From the IMG/VR virus record IMGVR_UViG_3300012006_000002, positions 1-64,000 of that record: 64,000 nucleotides of DNA. One strand, 5' to 3'. Of this stretch, positions 16,836 to 25,352 are shown in pieces. This DNA is from a virus. How positions within the stretch are numbered: position 1 is the stretch's first letter; each line of letters opens with the position of its first letter. The translations under genes were made by a program, and so were the position numbers. The notes under the pieces are model-generated. The model was not told the DNA's origin. It saw nothing but the letters and a program-made list of their open reading frames with translations, and ran no database searches.

Positions 16836-17252
16836 ATGGCAGGTGAAATTGCACTCAAGAAATTATATGGAGATATTGCGGGAGCGTATGTCATTGATGA
16901 TCTTAATGAAGCGCAAAGACATTATTTCATGTCGAAGAATCTCATTGTCATTCCGGCCATATTGACAAAAACTGTTCTGTCAAGTCCATTATTTGAACTA
17001 TCCGGACGAACACATTTTACCATTGAGGTAAGTAATTCCGGATTGAGTGCCGGAACATTCGTTTTGCAGGGATCAGTTACTGGGCAGAAATGGGTAGATA
17101 TTACTTCTACCCCCATTGCCTATAATGCTACTGCGCCTGTTACCGTAAGTTCTGAATTTCCATTTCGATTTTATCGCATTTTTGGATCGAACGTTGCCAG
17201 CGCCGGTTCAACCGAATATATAACTGTTTATTTGGCCGCAATTGCAAAGTAA
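16836..17252 (+). CDS. Small virion-like protein of unknown function
   Basis: A 138-residue protein with a strong ribosome site (AAAAGGAAATCAT before ATG). The N-terminus MAGEIALKKLYGDIAGAYV is helical, followed by a beta-rich body: LFELSGRTHFTIEVSNSGLS, FVLQGSVTGQKWVDITSTPI, FPFRFYRIFGSN. The pattern resembles the small 'discoidin-like or decoration' beta proteins of phage tails, but no family is recognised with confidence. It sits between the fibre-tip block and the sheath, 10 bases before the VTPE-repeat protein. A structural role near the tail is inferred from position. No transmembrane or catalytic motif. Confidence 0.55.
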   Translation: MAGEIALKKLYGDIAGAYVIDDLNEAQRHYFMSKNLIVIPAILTKTVLSSPLFELSGRTHFTIEVSNSGLSAGTFVLQGSVTGQKWVDITSTPIAYNATAPVTVSSEFPFRFYRIFGSNVASAGSTEYITVYLAAIAK

Positions 17253-17262
17253 CAAGGAGAAT

Positions 17263-17553
17263 ATGATGGCACGATCAACAGCGTCCCCTTCGGTCGAGGA
17301 AGAGTCTTTGGAAGTAACCCCCGAAGTAACCCCCGAAGTGACCCCCGAAGTAACCCCCGAAGTACTTCCTGCAGAAGAGATTCCTCCGGTTGAATATGGC
17401 CAATTTCTTCAATCATGGATTAATGATCAATCAGGAATTGAGCCGGAAGCACTTGGCGGCTTCGCGTGGCACGCGAAACAAATGAACTGGCATGGAGACA
17501 CCCCTTCCGGTTGGACTGCGAAGTTTCAAAGGTGGATTAATAGTAGTGCGTAA
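17263..17553 (+). CDS. Small protein with VTPE tandem repeats
   Basis: A 96-residue protein. The two possible starts are ATG 17263 and 17266, after AAGGAG (17254-17259). I list the first, but 17266 has better spacing. Residues of about 16-32 are four tandem VTPE units (12-bp DNA repeat at 17311-17358). The C-terminal 50 residues (YGQFLQSWINDQSGIEPEAL and GFAWHAKQMNWHGDTPSGW, ending KFQRWINSSA) form a small globular Trp-rich domain. Its last part resembles the 'W..kF..WI' ends of several phage proteins. Function unknown. It directly precedes the sheath gene by 59 bases, so it may be virion-associated or involved in tail assembly. Confidence 0.55.
   Translation: MMARSTASPSVEEESLEVTPEVTPEVTPEVTPEVLPAEEIPPVEYGQFLQSWINDQSGIEPEALGGFAWHAKQMNWHGDTPSGWTAKFQRWINSSA
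17311..17364 (+). repeat. 12-bp tandem repeat (GAAGTAACCCCC), four copies
   Basis: Four near-identical copies of a 12-bp unit (one has GTG in place of GTA), followed by a half unit. In frame they encode VTPE repeats, giving a flexible acidic Pro-rich linker. Such in-frame repeats can change copy number by slippage without a frameshift. Confidence 0.85.
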
Positions 17554-17612: not shown

Positions 17613-19898
17613 ATGGCTGTAGGATTTCGCGGAGTAACATTGATTGCCCCCGGCGTAGCTTCATATATTGATGATTCCAAGGCGGCATCCGCAGCCACAT
17701 TCACTCCGAACGCTGTTGCGGTTGTGGGCGAGGCTGATAGAGGCCAGCCCGGTGTAGCGGTAGCGTTTACTGACTCGTCAGCCGTCAATGCATTTTACGG
17801 GCCGTCCACTGCGTCAAAGTCGCTTACTGATGGATTGGTACGAGCGCTTGCCAGCGGCTCAAGCGTGGTCTACGGAGTGCGCGTTGGAAGAGCAAAGCCG
17901 TTTACTGCTAGTTTGTATGGCGCTACCACATTGGCTCAAGCAATTTCGTTGGTTACCAAAGAATATGGAAGATTTTGTAAAGCATGGTCTATAACTGTTG
18001 GTCCATCTACAAAAACTTTTAACCCAAATGGAGTATCTATAGGACAAAAAATTTCATTAAAAATTCATGACGGATCTACTTATATCACAGATAATATTGG
18101 AAGATCAGTAATTGCCCTATTAAGCACTACAGCTAATGCTGGAAGTGTATCTGTTACCAATACAACTGTTACGCTTACGACTAGCACAAACAGTGTTTAT
18201 GTTTATAAGTATACTGATTACCCAAGATTGCAAAATCTTGTGGCTGCAATCAATCAAGATGGTGCATTTATGGCTTCTGTGTCGACAGGAACCAGTGATC
18301 AATTCTTCACTTCTTCCATAGATTATATTTCAGGAGGAGTTATTCCAGCCAGTACTGGAACTCCATATTATCTTGTATCTACTTCTGCAGAAATAGTATC
18401 TGCAATTAATTACGGAATATTATCTTCATTTCTTACGGCAACTCTTGTAAGTTCGGAATCTTCAATTGTTCCCGGAGTTACGCAATTTTCATACAAAACA
18501 AGTTCAAATGGGGCGTCATTTACTGGAACAATTAATAATCTAGCAACACCAACGGCGGCAGCAGGACGGTATCTTACAGTCACTAAAATGAGCGGCGCTA
18601 TCAGCGCTTTGGCATCTACTTCTACTTCTTTTACCGTTACTCATCCATTTGGACTTATACCACTAGGAACAAGTGTCAATATTTCCGGATGTGTTACTAC
18701 AGGTTTCAATGCGACATGGACTGTTGCCTCATCTACTCCTGCTACCACAAGTCCAGTCGCCGCTGGAACTATTACTGTTTCATCTACCTTAGGAACAACC
18801 ACGCTTGCAGTTCCCAGCTCAGGGTCACTTGGAGAGTTATCCATTAATGGTGGTGGAATCATTGTTCCAAATATGACAATTTCCGGCACAGGCGTTCCTA
18901 TCGGAACGGTTATCGCCTCTCCGTTTTCCGCAACCGGGACCGGAAGCGGAGGAATTGGAACATATTTGCTTAATGTCGCCGGTTCCAGTGAGTCAACCAG
19001 TACGGCAAATGTGACATCAGTAGCAATGCTTGGATCTTCAACAGTTGGAACGATTGCTGATTACGATCCTGAAATAACTGCTTCTGACTGGACTGATGCA
19101 TTTGTCGCTTTACAAACTGTTCCCGCATCACTCGTTGTTCCAATGACTAGCCAAGAATCATATCATGCAACCGCCCTTGCACACGCTCAATCCATGTCAC
19201 TTCCCACAGGAAGAAGTGAGCGCATTGTTGTATGCGGCGGTTCGCTTGGAGAAACATATCTTCAGGCGCAGGCGCGAGCAGCAGCATTAAATGACAAACG
19301 CGCCGTGCTTGTTTGGCCGGGTATTAAAGACTTTGATGCCAACCAGTTTCTTGTTACTTTGCCGCCCTATTATCTGGCAGCGCAAATTGCAGGTTTATTA
19401 TGCGCACAAGAAGATGAAGCAACTCCTTTGACAAATTCTCTTATTCAGTTATATGGAATAGAAAGTGTTTCTTCTAACAAAATTATTGACTCTCTTGTTA
19501 GTAATGGTGTTTTTACCGTTCGAAATGATCTTGGAAGAGGTTTTGTCGTTGTTCAGGGATTAACTACATGGACAGGCGATATGAAAATGGCGCGTCGAGA
19601 AATCAGCACAGTTCGCGCTGCGGATGCAGTTATGAGAACTGTCAGAAACGAAGTTCAAAGATATGTAGGTGCTAAATCAAGTTCGGCTCTTGTGTCTACC
19701 ATTGAATCAACGGTACGAAATGTTTTGGACAGATGTGCTGATAGAGGTCTAATTTATGCTGACCCAGCAAACCCTGCTCGATATCCAGCATACGGAAACA
19801 TTGTTGTCAAAACTTTCGGCGATGCATACTATATTGATTTTAATATTTCGCCAGCTAAGCCAGTAAATTACTTGCTTATAACTGCGTATGTATCGTAA
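17613..19898 (+). CDS. Tail sheath protein
   Basis: A 761-residue contractile tail sheath with ribosome site AAGGAG before ATG 17613. The N-terminus (VTLIAPGVASYIDDS...VAVVGEADRGQP, FYGPS) and C-terminus (KRAVLVWPGI...LPPYYLAAQIAGLLCAQEDE, VRAADAVMRTVRNEVQRYVG, VRNVLDRCADRGLI, YYIDFNISPAKPVNYLL) carry the family signatures: initial P-G-V, the AAR/AG...D region and the long terminal arm used to link neighbouring subunits. Residues of about 325-470 (18585-19022) are an extra beta-rich insertion made of two mobile modules also seen in other virion proteins here. It sits before the tube gene. Sheath subunits form the contractile outer cylinder. Confidence 0.95.
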   Translation: MAVGFRGVTLIAPGVASYIDDSKAASAATFTPNAVAVVGEADRGQPGVAVAFTDSSAVNAFYGPSTASKSLTDGLVRALASGSSVVYGVRVGRAKPFTASLYGATTLAQAISLVTKEYGRFCKAWSITVGPSTKTFNPNGVSIGQKISLKIHDGSTYITDNIGRSVIALLSTTANAGSVSVTNTTVTLTTSTNSVYVYKYTDYPRLQNLVAAINQDGAFMASVSTGTSDQFFTSSIDYISGGVIPASTGTPYYLVSTSAEIVSAINYGILSSFLTATLVSSESSIVPGVTQFSYKTSSNGASFTGTINNLATPTAAAGRYLTVTKMSGAISALASTSTSFTVTHPFGLIPLGTSVNISGCVTTGFNATWTVASSTPATTSPVAAGTITVSSTLGTTTLAVPSSGSLGELSINGGGIIVPNMTISGTGVPIGTVIASPFSATGTGSGGIGTYLLNVAGSSESTSTANVTSVAMLGSSTVGTIADYDPEITASDWTDAFVALQTVPASLVVPMTSQESYHATALAHAQSMSLPTGRSERIVVCGGSLGETYLQAQARAAALNDKRAVLVWPGIKDFDANQFLVTLPPYYLAAQIAGLLCAQEDEATPLTNSLIQLYGIESVSSNKIIDSLVSNGVFTVRNDLGRGFVVVQGLTTWTGDMKMARREISTVRAADAVMRTVRNEVQRYVGAKSSSALVSTIESTVRNVLDRCADRGLIYADPANPARYPAYGNIVVKTFGDAYYIDFNISPAKPVNYLLITAYVS
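18585..19022 (+). other. Inserted beta-domain region inside the tail sheath gene
   Basis: The sheath frame here encodes two modules: SFTVTHPFGLIPLGTSVNIS with FNATWTVASSTP (a copy of the 'VT...G.....I.G...FNGTW.V' repeat of 5344-8175 and 27731-29683) and GTITVSSTLGTTTLAVPSSG with GTGVPIGTVI and GSGGIGTYLL (a copy of the 'GTTLTV...GVGTY' module). The rest of the sheath is of ordinary type, so these are probably surface-exposed decorations. Confidence 0.7.
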
Positions 19899-19921: not shown

Positions 19922-20557
19922 ATGTCAGGTTCGAGTACTTCGGCGACAGGAAATAGCAGTCAGGTTTTAGTTGGTGGAAAAATTCTTGTTCGAATGGATG
20001 GAAAAATTGTTGGATTTGCCAACAGTGCGAGTTGTACTGATGCATATGGATTAAATGCCATCCATGTACTCGGCCAATTGCATCCTGTTGATTATGTTCC
20101 TACAGACGCAAGGCACACTATTAACATGAATGTTCTTGTAATGAAAAGCGGAAGTTTAATCAAGGCAAATCTTGAGCCAACTGGCGCAGGAAGTTTTGGA
20201 CTATTGTCAACGAGCGCGTCAATTGCCGGAACAAAATTTGACAACACTCAACAAGATCTTCGATCAAGCGCTTATTACAAAACAGATGAAGGCATTCCGG
20301 GAAGTTTGCGGGTTCTTCATGGCAAAAATTTTGATATTGAAATTATTGCTCCTGACCTAGATTCTCCCGCAACAAAGCAGTACGTTGTTGTAAAATACAA
20401 AAACTGTTATTACAACACTGGTTCGGTTTCTTTTAGTGCAAACACTATTACTGTGCATAATTGTCAATTTCTGGCTTTATATCGCGAAGGATTTTTGACT
20501 GCTGACACAACATCTTTCCCCAAGGATGAATTGATTGATTTGACTAAGACCATCTAA
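19922..20557 (+). CDS. Tail tube protein
   Basis: A 211-residue protein 23 bases after the sheath, with ribosome site AGGATAGGAG before ATG. Signature segments of myophage tail tubes: GGKILVRMDGKIVGFANSAS, then NAIHVLGQLHPVDYVPTDAR-HTINMNVLVM, and a strand-rich body ending YKNCYYNTGSVSFSANTITVH and NCQFLALYREGF. The '.VLG...P....P......' region is typical of XkdM-like and other contractile-tail tube proteins. Gene order sheath then tube then chaperones then tape measure is the canonical arrangement. The tube stacks hexameric rings inside the sheath. No unusual insertions are seen. Confidence 0.9.
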   Translation: MSGSSTSATGNSSQVLVGGKILVRMDGKIVGFANSASCTDAYGLNAIHVLGQLHPVDYVPTDARHTINMNVLVMKSGSLIKANLEPTGAGSFGLLSTSASIAGTKFDNTQQDLRSSAYYKTDEGIPGSLRVLHGKNFDIEIIAPDLDSPATKQYVVVKYKNCYYNTGSVSFSANTITVHNCQFLALYREGFLTADTTSFPKDELIDLTKTI

Positions 20558-20615: not shown

Positions 20616-20632
20616 TATTTTAGGAGATACTT

Positions 20633-21079
20633 GTGACTACTGACCAAGAAATGATGCCGCCACAGAGAATGCTGGATTCTGGTTCTTCCTTGACAGACGC
20701 TATTAAATCATCTGCATCAATCGGACCAAAATTTGCTAGCGACACAAAAGAATACAGTCCCGCAAAGGCTCACGAAATTGATGGACCTGCGGGGAAAATT
20801 GGTGTGATTAGAGGGCACATGAATACGCAGCGACTGGCCGGAAAGGCTGTTGCAACTGCTCTTACTGGTATTCAAGTTGATCAACGAACATATGAAATGA
20901 CATGGATGTCAATTATGTTGCAGTTTGTTACTCAAGCGCCGGGTTATCTTCCGGCATATTGCAACGGAAATATTGACAAATTTATTGAAAATATTTACGA
21001 AATGGAAGATCTTGTGTACTACTATCGTGAATGGGAAAATTGGAGGAATTCTTTTCGCGCTTCAAGAGCGGGAACATAG
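20633..21079 (+). CDS. Tail assembly chaperone, short form (G-type)
   Basis: A 148-residue protein beginning with GTG 20633 after TAGGAGATACTT. It follows the tube and precedes the tape measure, the usual place of lambda gpG/Mu gp41-like chaperones that coat the tape-measure protein during tail assembly. The sequence is helical in the C-terminal half (TYEMTWMSIMLQFVTQAPGY, EMEDLVYYYREWENWRN). Near the end it overlaps an open frame in the +1 frame (21057-21599) that has no well-placed start of its own, as expected for a gpG-gpGT type programmed frameshift. The zero-frame stop is TAG 21077-21079. No close named homologue is asserted. Confidence 0.75.
   Translation: MTTDQEMMPPQRMLDSGSSLTDAIKSSASIGPKFASDTKEYSPAKAHEIDGPAGKIGVIRGHMNTQRLAGKAVATALTGIQVDQRTYEMTWMSIMLQFVTQAPGYLPAYCNGNIDKFIENIYEMEDLVYYYREWENWRNSFRASRAGT
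21042..21059 (+). promoter_or_regulatory. Candidate programmed +1 (or -2) frameshift site
   Basis: In the chaperone frame the codons are TGG AGG AAT TCT TTT CGC. Slippage of the P-site Phe tRNA from TTT (21053-21055) to TTC (21054-21056) would continue as GCG in the frame of 21057-21599. A Shine-Dalgarno-like GGAGG (21042-21046) lies 6 bases upstream of the TTT, as in known stimulated frameshifts. A -2 shift gives the same frame. Confidence 0.55.
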
Positions 21080-21599
21080 GGATTATCTTAAAAAACGAGC
21101 CATTCAAGAAATAAACAATGAAGAAATTTTTGAATGGTATCGACAGCAATACAATATTCCATTACACGAATTTCGTAATTTAGAAGTAGAATATGACGAT
21201 ATTGTCGTAGATTTTTATCGTCGTCAATATTGGAACGAAATTCGTCTTGGAGTGCGTAAATGGGATGATGTCTCTATTGAGATGAAAATGCCTCCCTTTA
21301 CATTATACAGGCCAAGCGGCGGAGCATTACCTGTTCCAAACGGATATAATTATGAAAATGATTACACAGTAAAACTTGAATCATATACTTCTAACTCTTC
21401 TTCTACTGACATTACATCGAACAAATTATTAAAATCTTCTGTTGTAACACCGAAGGAGGGAACGTTTGACATGAGTCCTAATCAGGAATCTGAATACAAA
21501 CTTTCAGAAGATGAATTTGCTTCAATGATGAAATCAGCAGAAACAGATACTTCTGTTTGGGATGAATTGGAATCTTTTGATAGTTTGTCGCAGGTATAG
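21057..21599 (+). CDS. Tail assembly chaperone, frameshift extension (GT-type)
   Basis: This is the downstream segment of the probable fusion of about 322 residues (141 from the short form plus about 181). The codons after the shift read ALQEREHRDYLKKRAIQEIN, then FEWYRQQYNIP, then an acidic C-terminus ending DELESFDSLSQV. An upstream ATG at 20925 exists in this frame, but the residues it would give before the overlap are a basic, shadow-like translation of the short chaperone, and no ATG/GTG/TTG with a ribosome site lies near 21057. A GTG at 21027 lacks a ribosome site. It ends 12 bases before the tape-measure start. The extension in lambda-like systems binds the tape measure. Confidence 0.65.
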   Translation, partial: ALQEREHRDYLKKRAIQEINNEEIFEWYRQQYNIPLHEFRNLEVEYDDIVVDFYRRQYWNEIRLGVRKWDDVSIEMKMPPFTLYRPSGGALPVPNGYNYENDYTVKLESYTSNSSSTDITSNKLLKSSVVTPKEGTFDMSPNQESEYKLSEDEFASMMKSAETDTSVWDELESFDSLSQV

Positions 21600-21611
21600 G
21601 ATCATATCATC

Positions 21612-24600
21612 ATGCCACCTCCTCCTGCGCCAAGACCCGCACCAGCGCCCCGGCCACCACAACAAACAGATGCGCTTCTTCAGGCTATTCTGGACGCAAT
21701 AACTAATCCTTCAACAATGCCGGGGCCGAATCCATGGACGTTGCCGGGGCCGAATCCATGGACGTTGCCGGGGCCGAATCCATGGACGTTGCCGGGGCCG
21801 AATCCCCAGACGCAACCGGGGCCGAATCCCCAGACGCAACCGGGACCGAATCCCCAGACGCAACCGGGGCCGAATCCCCAGACGCAACCGGGACCGAATC
21901 CCCAGACGCAACCGGCACCGAATCCGCAGACGCATTCGGATCCGAATCCACCCACGCCATTGAAAGATCTTGTTGCTGCGTCATTAAAAGGATTTGCAAC
22001 TAGCGTTAATTCGTTCACCGCACAAGCCGAAGTAGATGACTATCGCATAGGTCAATTATCTCGCAGACATCTTGATGACACAACTCAAAGTATACAGAGT
22101 TATCGAGAAAGAATTCGTGATTTAACTATTGGCACTGGCATGAGTCATGATGAAGTCTATCAATATGCTCAAACAGCCGGACGATATGGTGCTGGAACGG
22201 GGCGTCAAAATACTTTTGACAGTTTGACTCAAGCCAAAACATCAGCAAAGATGTCTTTTGTTCTCGGCGCAAATGCTGAAAATTACAATGACACCATATC
22301 GGCTTTTGGGCGCGCCGGAGCAGTGGGCGCTTCTGGTCAAAGCGGAGGCTTCACGCAAGATCAAAGACAATTCGCCGTAGTTATCGCAGAAACGCTTGCT
22401 TCTGGAAAATTGTTTGATCGTCTCGATGAAGTTTTGTCTAGCATGACAAATCTGGCCAGCCACATTGCCAGTAGGGGCGGAGATGTTGACCCAAGCATGC
22501 TTGGACGTGCGCTGGCATCGGCCAACAACACAGCCCGAGAATTTGGAGGAGCAAAACTTCAGGAAAGAGCTCCTGATTTGTTGTCCAAAATTGATCAAAC
22601 AACCTCCAATCTTGTCAATGATCCCGCGGCATTTGCTGTTTATAACAGAATGCATCCGTCTGCCGCAGGAAATGTTGGCATACAGGATATGCGCGCTTTT
22701 CGCAGAACAATGGAAGGCGGCGACATCATTGAGAAATCTCGGGTATATGGAGGTTTGTATGAACTCCATGGCGGTAATCTTGCAAACCTACGACCGGGAG
22801 GAAAACTTTCCGAGCAAGACATGATTGCTCAGCATAAGTTGTCTCAAGATTATGGCATGACTACTGATGACTATGAAAACACTTTGCGAATTGCCAGTGG
22901 TGTTTCCAGTGGAACAGGGATGCAGCGACTTAACGCTGTTCAGGGATCGTCCGAATATCAACAATTGGCGCGAACAGGATCTGCTGGAGCTGTCAGTACG
23001 TATGCGCGCGTTGCTACTTCAGAAACAAAAGATGACCTTGCAGCAACATTGCAGAAACTTATTACCAATGTTTCCGAAACTCCCGGAGCTGCTCAACTTC
23101 CGGGATCAAAAGAATCATTATTTGTTGGAAAATTAACTGGTTTAAAAAATACCCTTGATTCATCTGGGGATCCCGACTCAATTCGAAATTCACTGATGTC
23201 GTTGATTGCAGGAAACGAGTCAAACACTTCTTCGACTAAAGTAGATTTGGATGTTGGAAATAGACTGAATCAATCAAGAATACAAACAGTTGAATTAAAT
23301 GAAGCGTTCATGAAATTGGCTGGTAATGTAAATCAATTAAATTCACTTCTTGAAATAGATCGAATTAAAGCAACAGCGATGCGGGTGGGTGCTGGATCAA
23401 CTACCCAGTATATTGATAATCCCGGAAATGCCTTGGCCGTAGGCACCGGAACGAACCAACTGCAACGGTTAGCCTCTGGCGCAGCGGTACAAGCCATAGA
23501 CAAGGGTGGAGATTTTATGGAATTCGGATCCAGTTTTCTTGGATCTGCGTCTTCTGCTTCAACACTTCTTGATTCTGCCACATTGAAAGGCGCAATTGGG
23601 AGAGCGCCAAGATTAGCCAGAGCCGGGGTAATGGCTCTCGGAGCTGCTGGAACGGGCTACGCTGCCGTAAAGGCGTTAAACGCAGCACATAGAGAGTTTG
23701 ACGATAATGTTACATATGTAGACGAAGACGGTAAAAACGACAGTTGGAAAACTTTTGCCAGCAAACATGAAGCATTGATAAGGACTGGCGTTACGGCATT
23801 AAGCGGAATTACGGGAGCTGTGTTTGGCGGACCCGCCACGGCATTGGCGGCCGCAGGCGTCAGTGGATTAGCCATGGATTATGCTTACGATGCACTGGGA
23901 ATTAATAAAGTCAAACGCCTCCGACCAGACGGATCTTCTGCCGGAGGGGGTGATGCTTCTGCACCGATCAGCACTGATACCGGAACAGGAATTGTTTCAA
24001 TTGAGCAAACAATGGTTAACGAAATGCGAGTTAGCCGTCTTGTTGTTGAAGGCCTTGAAATCGGAGTCTCAGTTGGAGGAGCAGGCGGGGGATGGGATGG
24101 GGGATCGGGTGGAGGAAGCGCCTCATCTGTCAGACCTCCTCTCGGATCGAAGCGAGTATCCGGACCGGGTTCCGCGCCGGGATCATCCCCCTCTCAATAT
24201 TCTGCCCAATACGCAAACTGGAGATCTGCTACTGGAAAAGGTGATGATGAATTAAATAAATATGTTGATGAGGCAGCAGAAATGTATGGCTCGCAGGGTG
24301 TCACAAGGGATCTTCTGTTTTCCATGATGGCTTCAGAAAGTGGATTCAATCCCGGTGCTACATCAAGCGCAGGAGCGCAAGGACTCATGCAACTCATGCC
24401 GCAATATCACAAGGGCGTGAATGCATATGATCCTCACGACAATATCATGGCGGGAGCCAAGCACATTGCAGGAAATCTTGCGGCCAATGGAGGAGATATG
24501 GAGGCTGCTCTTGCCGCATACAACGGCGGTCAAGGAAATGTCAATCTTCCTTCCGCAAGAGGATATGCACGCAGAATCATGGGAAGAATGGACGGCACAA

Positions 24601-25352
24601 GCATTCCTTCTGGCGGGGGGCGAAATGTTGCTTCGCCTATTGCTGGACAGGAAGGTGTCGATTGGAGCGTTGGCACGCCTTGGATGGCAAATGCAAATGA
24701 TCCAAGAGCAGCAGCATATTACGCAGCAACCGGAAATGCATATAACTGGGGCGTAGATCTTATTGGAAAAGGAAAGCCCCTGACTGCGCAAGCGGCCATT
24801 GGCGGTACAATTAGCAAAGTTTTTAACGAAGCACCAGATACTCCCAGTGGCATTAACAACGGACAGTCTAATATTAATTCTGGGTGGGGAAATCAGGTTG
24901 AAATACGTGGAGATGATGGAACTATTCACAGAATGTCGCATCTTGCTGCAGTTCAACAAGGCCTGAAAGTAGGAGACCGCATTGAAGCCGGAGCCAAAGT
25001 TGGAATGGTGGGTGCCACTGGTCGAGCCACAGGACCACATCTTGACTGGGAAGTGCTTAAAAATGGCAAGCAAATAGATGCCATGGAATGGCTTCACAAC
25101 GCTCAGGCAAATGGAGCGCAAATTACTACCGGAGGATCGGCCGTAGATGGTGCAAACTTGTCAAATTCCGGCAGCGCACCCAGCGGCCCCCAACGGCTTG
25201 AAATTCAAATCAAGCTTTCTCAAGACAAGGATGGAAATATTGTTGGTAAAGTAGAAGGATCTACATCTATCAACATTAACTTAGGCGGCGACACAATACG
25301 CGCAGCACAAAGCAGGAGCGGATTACCTACTGGATGGGTAAGGAGAAGATAG
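21612..25352 (+). CDS. Tape-measure protein with SLT and M23-like domains
   Basis: A 1246-residue protein after the chaperone pair. Residues 37-115 are Pro-rich octapeptide repeats (three PGPNPWTL, five PGPNPQTQ, then PAPNPQTH and a variant). The long middle is helical and Gly/Ala/Ser-rich with a hydrophobic stretch near 675-700 and 735-760. Residues of about 861-990 are a soluble lytic transglycosylase domain with E909 in SESGFNP, AGAQGLMQLMP, ALAAYNGG and YARRIM. Residues of about 1025-1170 resemble an M23 peptidase (YNWGVDL, GNQVEIRGDDG, HRMSHL, GPHLDWEV), but the first His of the HxxxD motif is N1045 and the last His is D1145, so zinc binding is doubtful. It sets tail length and helps cross the cell wall. 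Confidence 0.9.
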   Translation: MPPPPAPRPAPAPRPPQQTDALLQAILDAITNPSTMPGPNPWTLPGPNPWTLPGPNPWTLPGPNPQTQPGPNPQTQPGPNPQTQPGPNPQTQPGPNPQTQPAPNPQTHSDPNPPTPLKDLVAASLKGFATSVNSFTAQAEVDDYRIGQLSRRHLDDTTQSIQSYRERIRDLTIGTGMSHDEVYQYAQTAGRYGAGTGRQNTFDSLTQAKTSAKMSFVLGANAENYNDTISAFGRAGAVGASGQSGGFTQDQRQFAVVIAETLASGKLFDRLDEVLSSMTNLASHIASRGGDVDPSMLGRALASANNTAREFGGAKLQERAPDLLSKIDQTTSNLVNDPAAFAVYNRMHPSAAGNVGIQDMRAFRRTMEGGDIIEKSRVYGGLYELHGGNLANLRPGGKLSEQDMIAQHKLSQDYGMTTDDYENTLRIASGVSSGTGMQRLNAVQGSSEYQQLARTGSAGAVSTYARVATSETKDDLAATLQKLITNVSETPGAAQLPGSKESLFVGKLTGLKNTLDSSGDPDSIRNSLMSLIAGNESNTSSTKVDLDVGNRLNQSRIQTVELNEAFMKLAGNVNQLNSLLEIDRIKATAMRVGAGSTTQYIDNPGNALAVGTGTNQLQRLASGAAVQAIDKGGDFMEFGSSFLGSASSASTLLDSATLKGAIGRAPRLARAGVMALGAAGTGYAAVKALNAAHREFDDNVTYVDEDGKNDSWKTFASKHEALIRTGVTALSGITGAVFGGPATALAAAGVSGLAMDYAYDALGINKVKRLRPDGSSAGGGDASAPISTDTGTGIVSIEQTMVNEMRVSRLVVEGLEIGVSVGGAGGGWDGGSGGGSASSVRPPLGSKRVSGPGSAPGSSPSQYSAQYANWRSATGKGDDELNKYVDEAAEMYGSQGVTRDLLFSMMASESGFNPGATSSAGAQGLMQLMPQYHKGVNAYDPHDNIMAGAKHIAGNLAANGGDMEAALAAYNGGQGNVNLPSARGYARRIMGRMDGTSIPSGGGRNVASPIAGQEGVDWSVGTPWMANANDPRAAAYYAATGNAYNWGVDLIGKGKPLTAQAAIGGTISKVFNEAPDTPSGINNGQSNINSGWGNQVEIRGDDGTIHRMSHLAAVQQGLKVGDRIEAGAKVGMVGATGRATGPHLDWEVLKNGKQIDAMEWLHNAQANGAQITTGGSAVDGANLSNSGSAPSGPQRLEIQIKLSQDKDGNIVGKVEGSTSININLGGDTIRAAQSRSGLPTGWVRRR
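21720..21956 (+). repeat. 24-bp tandem repeat, about ten units, in tape-measure N-terminus
   Basis: Units of the form CCGGGGCCGAATCCATGGACGTT (23 of 24 bases split by the motif) repeat in frame. The first three encode PGPNPWTL, the next five PGPNPQTQ, then PAPNPQTH and SDPNPPT. There is slight divergence towards the end. The repeats also keep long frames open on the opposite strand, which are shadows. Confidence 0.9.

Follow-up and report, generated by a model that had tools for sequence, protein, structure and literature searches.

Gene order and overlapping reading frames

The window, that is, the whole stretch of 64,000 nucleotides that was analysed, comprises bases 1-64000 of a 102,766-base IMG/VR virus record, and all of the features described below lie on its + strand. 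A tail sheath gene (17613..19898), assigned by matches to PHROG 279 (E=7e-46) and PF04984, is followed by the gene for the tail tube protein (19922..20557), which was identified by its position after the sheath gene and by a match to PHROG 985 (E=3e-19). Two overlapping ORFs, the second of which has no start of its own, sit between the tail tube gene and the gene for a tape measure protein/tail lysin with SLT and M23 domains (21612..25352). The first of the two, which defines frame 0 (20633..21079), begins with GTG six bases after a Shine-Dalgarno sequence (AGGAG, 20622..20626) and ends with TAG (21077-21079); its product of 148 aa matches the tail assembly chaperones of PHROG 25000 (E=9e-4). 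The second ORF occupies the +1 frame (21057..21599) and would supply an extension of 180 aa; 20633-21055 joined to it encodes a long chaperone of 321 aa. AlphaFold models of the two chaperone halves were of low quality, with pLDDT values of 45 and 58; Foldseek returned nothing significant.

Other features of the neighbouring genes were recorded. Matches of the 761-aa sheath protein to named phages, among those listed, cover only approximately the last 270 residues, and the first ~480 residues are without a match among the matches listed. A small ORF ahead of the sheath gene contains a repeat encoding VTPEVTPEV... (17242-17553), and a tandem repeat of PGPNPQTQ/PGPNPWTL units (21718-21940) lies near the N-terminus of the tape measure protein.

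Conservation of both frames and of a single TTT_CGN

A search of IMG/VR for relatives of the frame-0 protein yielded, together with the window, 12 distinct loci of 67-78% identity. The +1 ORF extends 173 to 223 codons beyond the frame-0 stop in 11 relatives (two of them identical) and in the window, and L016 has the same two-frame arrangement. The -1 frame is never long in any of the 12 distinct members, and in the window it is open for only 11 codons past the frame-0 stop. When the +1 protein was used as the query, the same contigs were returned, and neither an in-frame fusion nor any other layout was seen. The +1 protein is itself conserved, with 24 invariant columns. An earlier, sequence-only reading of this DNA had proposed that the tail chaperone gene contains a programmed shift and had called for alignment with related phages; all 12 distinct family members keep the same two-frame layout, and TTT_CGN is present in 53 of 53 distinct contexts of the wider survey described below. 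This sharing of the layout refutes the notion that the split frames arose through gene decay or an error in sequencing or assembly, an explanation of negligible probability, given that the arrangement is repeated across 12 contigs, which come from several metagenomes, and across dozens of isolate genomes. Decay is also opposed by the third-position excess detected in close pairs, which the +1 ORF shows as well, though less strongly than frame 0.

Could the second ORF be a separate gene with its own start? The window offers two in-frame candidates, GTG at 21027 and a codon at 20925 that had been taken for ATG but is in fact TTG. Such a gene is nevertheless highly improbable, because no start codon is conserved in the +1 frame: GTG 21027 is found elsewhere only in L005 and L008, the only start in L004 is a GTG directly after the shift, and L006 has no start within 60 bases of the site, its first lying 62 codons in, inside the conserved domain. 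The window has no +1-frame ATG past the shift before position 21282, which is 76 codons into the +1 segment. Furthermore, a separate gene would leave the conservation of TTT_CGN unaccounted for.

The conserved frame-0 protein finishes at W-R-[NG]-S-F-R, and each family member carries TCN_TTT_CGN at this end. In the window the sequence is TCT_TTT_CGC (21050..21058), preceded by a TGG codon (21041..21043) that places Trp four codons before the shift codon, as in all 12 members. Within the stretch that permits a +1 shift, exactly one in-frame TTT_CG is present per family member, and in L010 a TAA codon lies directly after TTT CGT, so that the shift cannot be later. The Phe codon at the site is TTT in 12/12 members; among 20 invariant residues with two-fold-degenerate codons it is the sole position restricted to one codon, the other 19 being variable, and another invariant Phe column has TTT in 5 members and TTC in 7. 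The Arg codon is CGN throughout (12/12), whereas four other invariant Arg columns include AGA/AGG, and the Ser codon is TCN (12/12), whereas another invariant Ser column includes AGY. TTT_CGN occurs in the window's genes at a frequency of 0.0009 per codon pair, and the chance of finding it within the window's 60 permitted codons is ~5%; since its presence in a single window is a 5% event, the argument rests on conservation.

The site in SPO1-like, PHB04-like and haloarchaeal viruses

Sheath comparisons led to SPO1-like and PHB04-like phages, whose chaperone loci were found to contain the same motif: TCC_TTT_CGT in SPO1, TCC_TTT_CGA in PHB04, TCC_TTT_CGC in Dolphis and ACA_TTT_CGC in an Exiguobacterium phage. 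In phages of Listeria (ACG_TTT_CGC_TAC_TGA), Enterococcus (TCC_TTT_CGA_TAC_TAG), Staphylococcus (Sb-1, TCC_TTT_CGT_TAC_TAA) and Brochothrix (CGA_TTT_CGA_TTC_TGA), the permitted overlap is just 6 codons each, and TTT_CGN lies inside it. The haloarchaeal viruses HSTV-2, HF2 and HRTV-14 each have one in-frame TTT_CGN in the overlap. A scan of IMG/VR with PHB04-like chaperones added 24 complete loci (some redundant), each with one TTT_C in the overlap, which is always TTT_CGN; similar scans gave no relative for the SPO1 chaperone and a single identical record for the Listeria one. The short chaperone had no relatives in GTDB genome contigs and, by tblastn, none in named phages.

After identical contexts were removed, 53 distinct contexts remained, which are kin by descent within lineages rather than independent trials, and in 53/53 the permitted overlap contains a single in-frame TTT_CGN. 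The codon in the E site is TCN in 37 of the 53, and that in the A site is CGC in 27, CGT in 13, CGA in 12 and CGG in 1. Phe is encoded by TTT in only 12-15% of cases in PHB04, Dolphis, HSTV-2 and HF2, yet the site is TTT.

The short chaperones of the window's family and of Herelleviridae are related by hhalign (E=1.5e-5, probability 80; 1.2e-5 in a separate profile comparison), and the C-domain of the family's extension is related to the PHB04-like extension (E=4e-7). Direct profile comparison of the family's extension with the SPO1-like extension was not significant; SPO1-like and PHB04-like phages are related to each other in both parts (1.6e-7, 1.1e-9). The same type of comparison uncovered no detectable relation between halovirus and bacterial phage chaperones. 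Judged from these profiles, the site is common to one homologous bacterial lineage, and the haloviruses have it without detectable homology.

In three of the phage records, a gene annotated as "RNA polymerase beta subunit" follows the chaperone gene: L041:6780-7136 (Staphylococcus phage Sb-1), L038:5607-6074 (Lpa804) and L086:1433-1900 (Lactobacillus 3-521). These genes overlap the +1 chaperone extension, and each looks to be part of the long chaperone under a wrong annotation.

Proposed slippage, candidate stimulators and known systems

In the best reading, the locus encodes the tail assembly chaperone of a contractile-tailed phage, and the gene is very probably expressed via +1 programmed ribosomal frameshifting. 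Most ribosomes would read 20633-21079 and produce the short chaperone of 148 aa. A minority, presumably at a low rate, would slip at TCT_TTT_CGC: while the P site holds peptidyl-tRNA-Phe paired with TTT and CGC is still to be decoded, the tRNA (anticodon GAA) could shift forward by one base and pair with the overlapping TTC. The skipped base would be C at 21056, as the frames and their conservation indicate, and reading would resume at GCG CTT CAA... and continue until 21599 to give the 321-aa long form. If they work like lambda G/GT, the short and long products may cover the tape measure protein and bring in tail tube subunits. The sequence-only reading agrees here with the DNA: GGAGG is at 21042-21046, TTT at 21053-21055, C at 21056 and the +1 frame at 21057-21599, and its predicted junction peptide (...SFALQEREH) fits the translated junction, ...NSFALQEREH. 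Its proposal of Phe-tRNA slippage at TTT_C into the +1 frame is compatible with every context, TTT to TTC re-pairing being possible in 53/53. Its description of the site as TTT_C stood, but it had noted neither that CGN belongs to the motif nor that a Trp is conserved at -4, and the precedent of SPO1 had been overlooked.

The same reading frame would be reached by a -2 shift at this place, as in phage Mu, giving ...NSFFALQ...; this had been offered as an alternative, and the chaperone of the Halorubrum phage HRTV-14 (L089, 883-1666) is annotated as "putative programmed translational -2 frameshift". Re-pairing of Phe-tRNA on TTC is perfect, whereas after a -2 shift the tRNA would face the mismatched CTT in the window and the still worse CGT, AGT or GAT in relatives; a conserved slippery run is absent, and conserved re-pairing two bases back was not found across the E-site codons of the 53 contexts. 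In addition, mass spectrometry of influenza A PA-X, which has the same motif, defined both the site and the +1 direction (PMC3498833). A -2 shift is accordingly very improbable, and the shift is best read, from the pairing possibilities, as +1 at TCT_TTT_CGC; for the HRTV-14 site (AAG_TTT_CGC_AGA), too, +1 probably fits better. A lambda-type -1 shift was rejected, as the slippery heptamer is missing and the extension lies in the +1 frame, and so was transcriptional slippage, since the window has a run of just TTTT and its relatives one of TTT.

GGAGG (21042..21046), six bases before TTT, had been regarded as a possible stimulator. In prfB, a Shine-Dalgarno-like element lies approximately three bases upstream and a stop codon occupies the A site. 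A prfB-like +1 shift at the same site, driven mainly by GGAGG, would draw on this element and on AAGGAG in many PHB04-like loci, but the A site here holds the sense codon CGN, the spacing is unlike that of prfB, and GGAGG is missing in 9/12 family members (those with it at six bases are the window, L005 and L008) and is without a counterpart in most Herelleviridae. An element that is not conserved cannot be generally required, and we regard a shift of the prfB type as quite improbable. The codons AAG GAG, which place AAGGAG five to six bases upstream, occur in 11 of 24 distinct PHB04-like contexts (L025, L026, L029 and others), and are perhaps a lineage-specific stimulator. Trp at -4 is present in 12/12 family members and in 24/53 contexts overall. 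A conserved Trp four codons before UUU in fseA has been suggested to act through the nascent peptide (PMC5009743), and a nascent-chain Trp four residues upstream may likewise help the shift in Herelleviridae and the window's family, although its conservation may reflect protein homology alone.

A hairpin with z=-3.6 is predicted in the window at 21095-21142, ~40 bases past TTT_CGC. We found no conserved 3' RNA structure: the relatives had z values of -2.1 to +0.4 and differing structures. Altered decoding by phage-encoded tRNAs was rejected, since the 102,766-base record yielded only tRNA-Leu(TAA). CGN codons are not rare in these genomes, a point against the +1 reading in that a pause at the site is left without a cause.

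A +1 chaperone shift was already noted phage by phage. The GenBank record of SPO1 gp10.2/gp11.1 bears a '+1' slippage note, the Adastra record has a '+1 frameshift product', and an 'unusual +1 frameshift' was reported for Moonbeam (PMC4299906). For haloviruses, TTT-CGC was proposed as the shift site of the HF1 group (PMC7230728), and the HSTV-2 chaperone shift was listed as very likely +1 (PMC5009743). Our text search of the literature, in which subscription papers are thinly covered and which is therefore a weak negative, returned no paper naming TTT_CGN as a bacterial-phage chaperone shift site. The addition made here is one shift site uniting these lineages. We lean toward the view, with only modest confidence, that UUU_CGN, mostly preceded by UCN, is an ancient +1 signal, intrinsic to the ribosome, that sets the ratio of short to long chaperone in several lineages of contractile-tailed viruses of bacteria and archaea and acts on bacterial, archaeal and eukaryotic ribosomes, with the -4 Trp as a possible aid in Herelleviridae and the window's family. 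The single site in 53/53 loci tells annotators exactly where to join the ORFs and indicates that several phage records probably misname the extension. It also provides a natural bacterial and archaeal system in which to ask why UUU_CGN slips ribosomes forward across three domains.

Among known systems, SPO1 shares with the window the gene position, the +1 direction, TCC_TTT_CGT, Trp at -4 and a homologous short chaperone. It differs in belonging to another phage group (Herelleviridae), in the frame-0 tail after the shift and in the extension, which is tied to the window's family only via PHB04-like phages. The HF1-group and HSTV-2 haloviruses likewise have two overlapping chaperone ORFs that need a +1 shift, but their hosts are archaeal, they have no Trp at -4 and their proteins show no detectable homology. 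Lambda G/GT resembles the window in gene order and in the logic of a short and a long chaperone (PMC5009743), but uses a -1 shift on a slippery heptamer rather than +1 on UUU_C. UUU_Y is +1-prone in bacteria (PMC5009743), and in fseA (msi172-msi171) of a rhizobial ICE a +1 shift occurs at UUU with Trp four codons upstream (PMC5009743); that gene is unrelated, and the likeness concerns UUU and Trp. The site of influenza A PA-X, UCC_UUU_CGU, has the same pattern of E-, P- and A-site codons, the +1 direction and no evident structure (PMC3498833), but is read by a eukaryotic ribosome in a gene of unrelated identity and role. As in the UUU_CGN +1 class to which PA-X and the amalgaviruses belong, the window has the motif in frame inside the overlap and lacks a conserved 3' structure.
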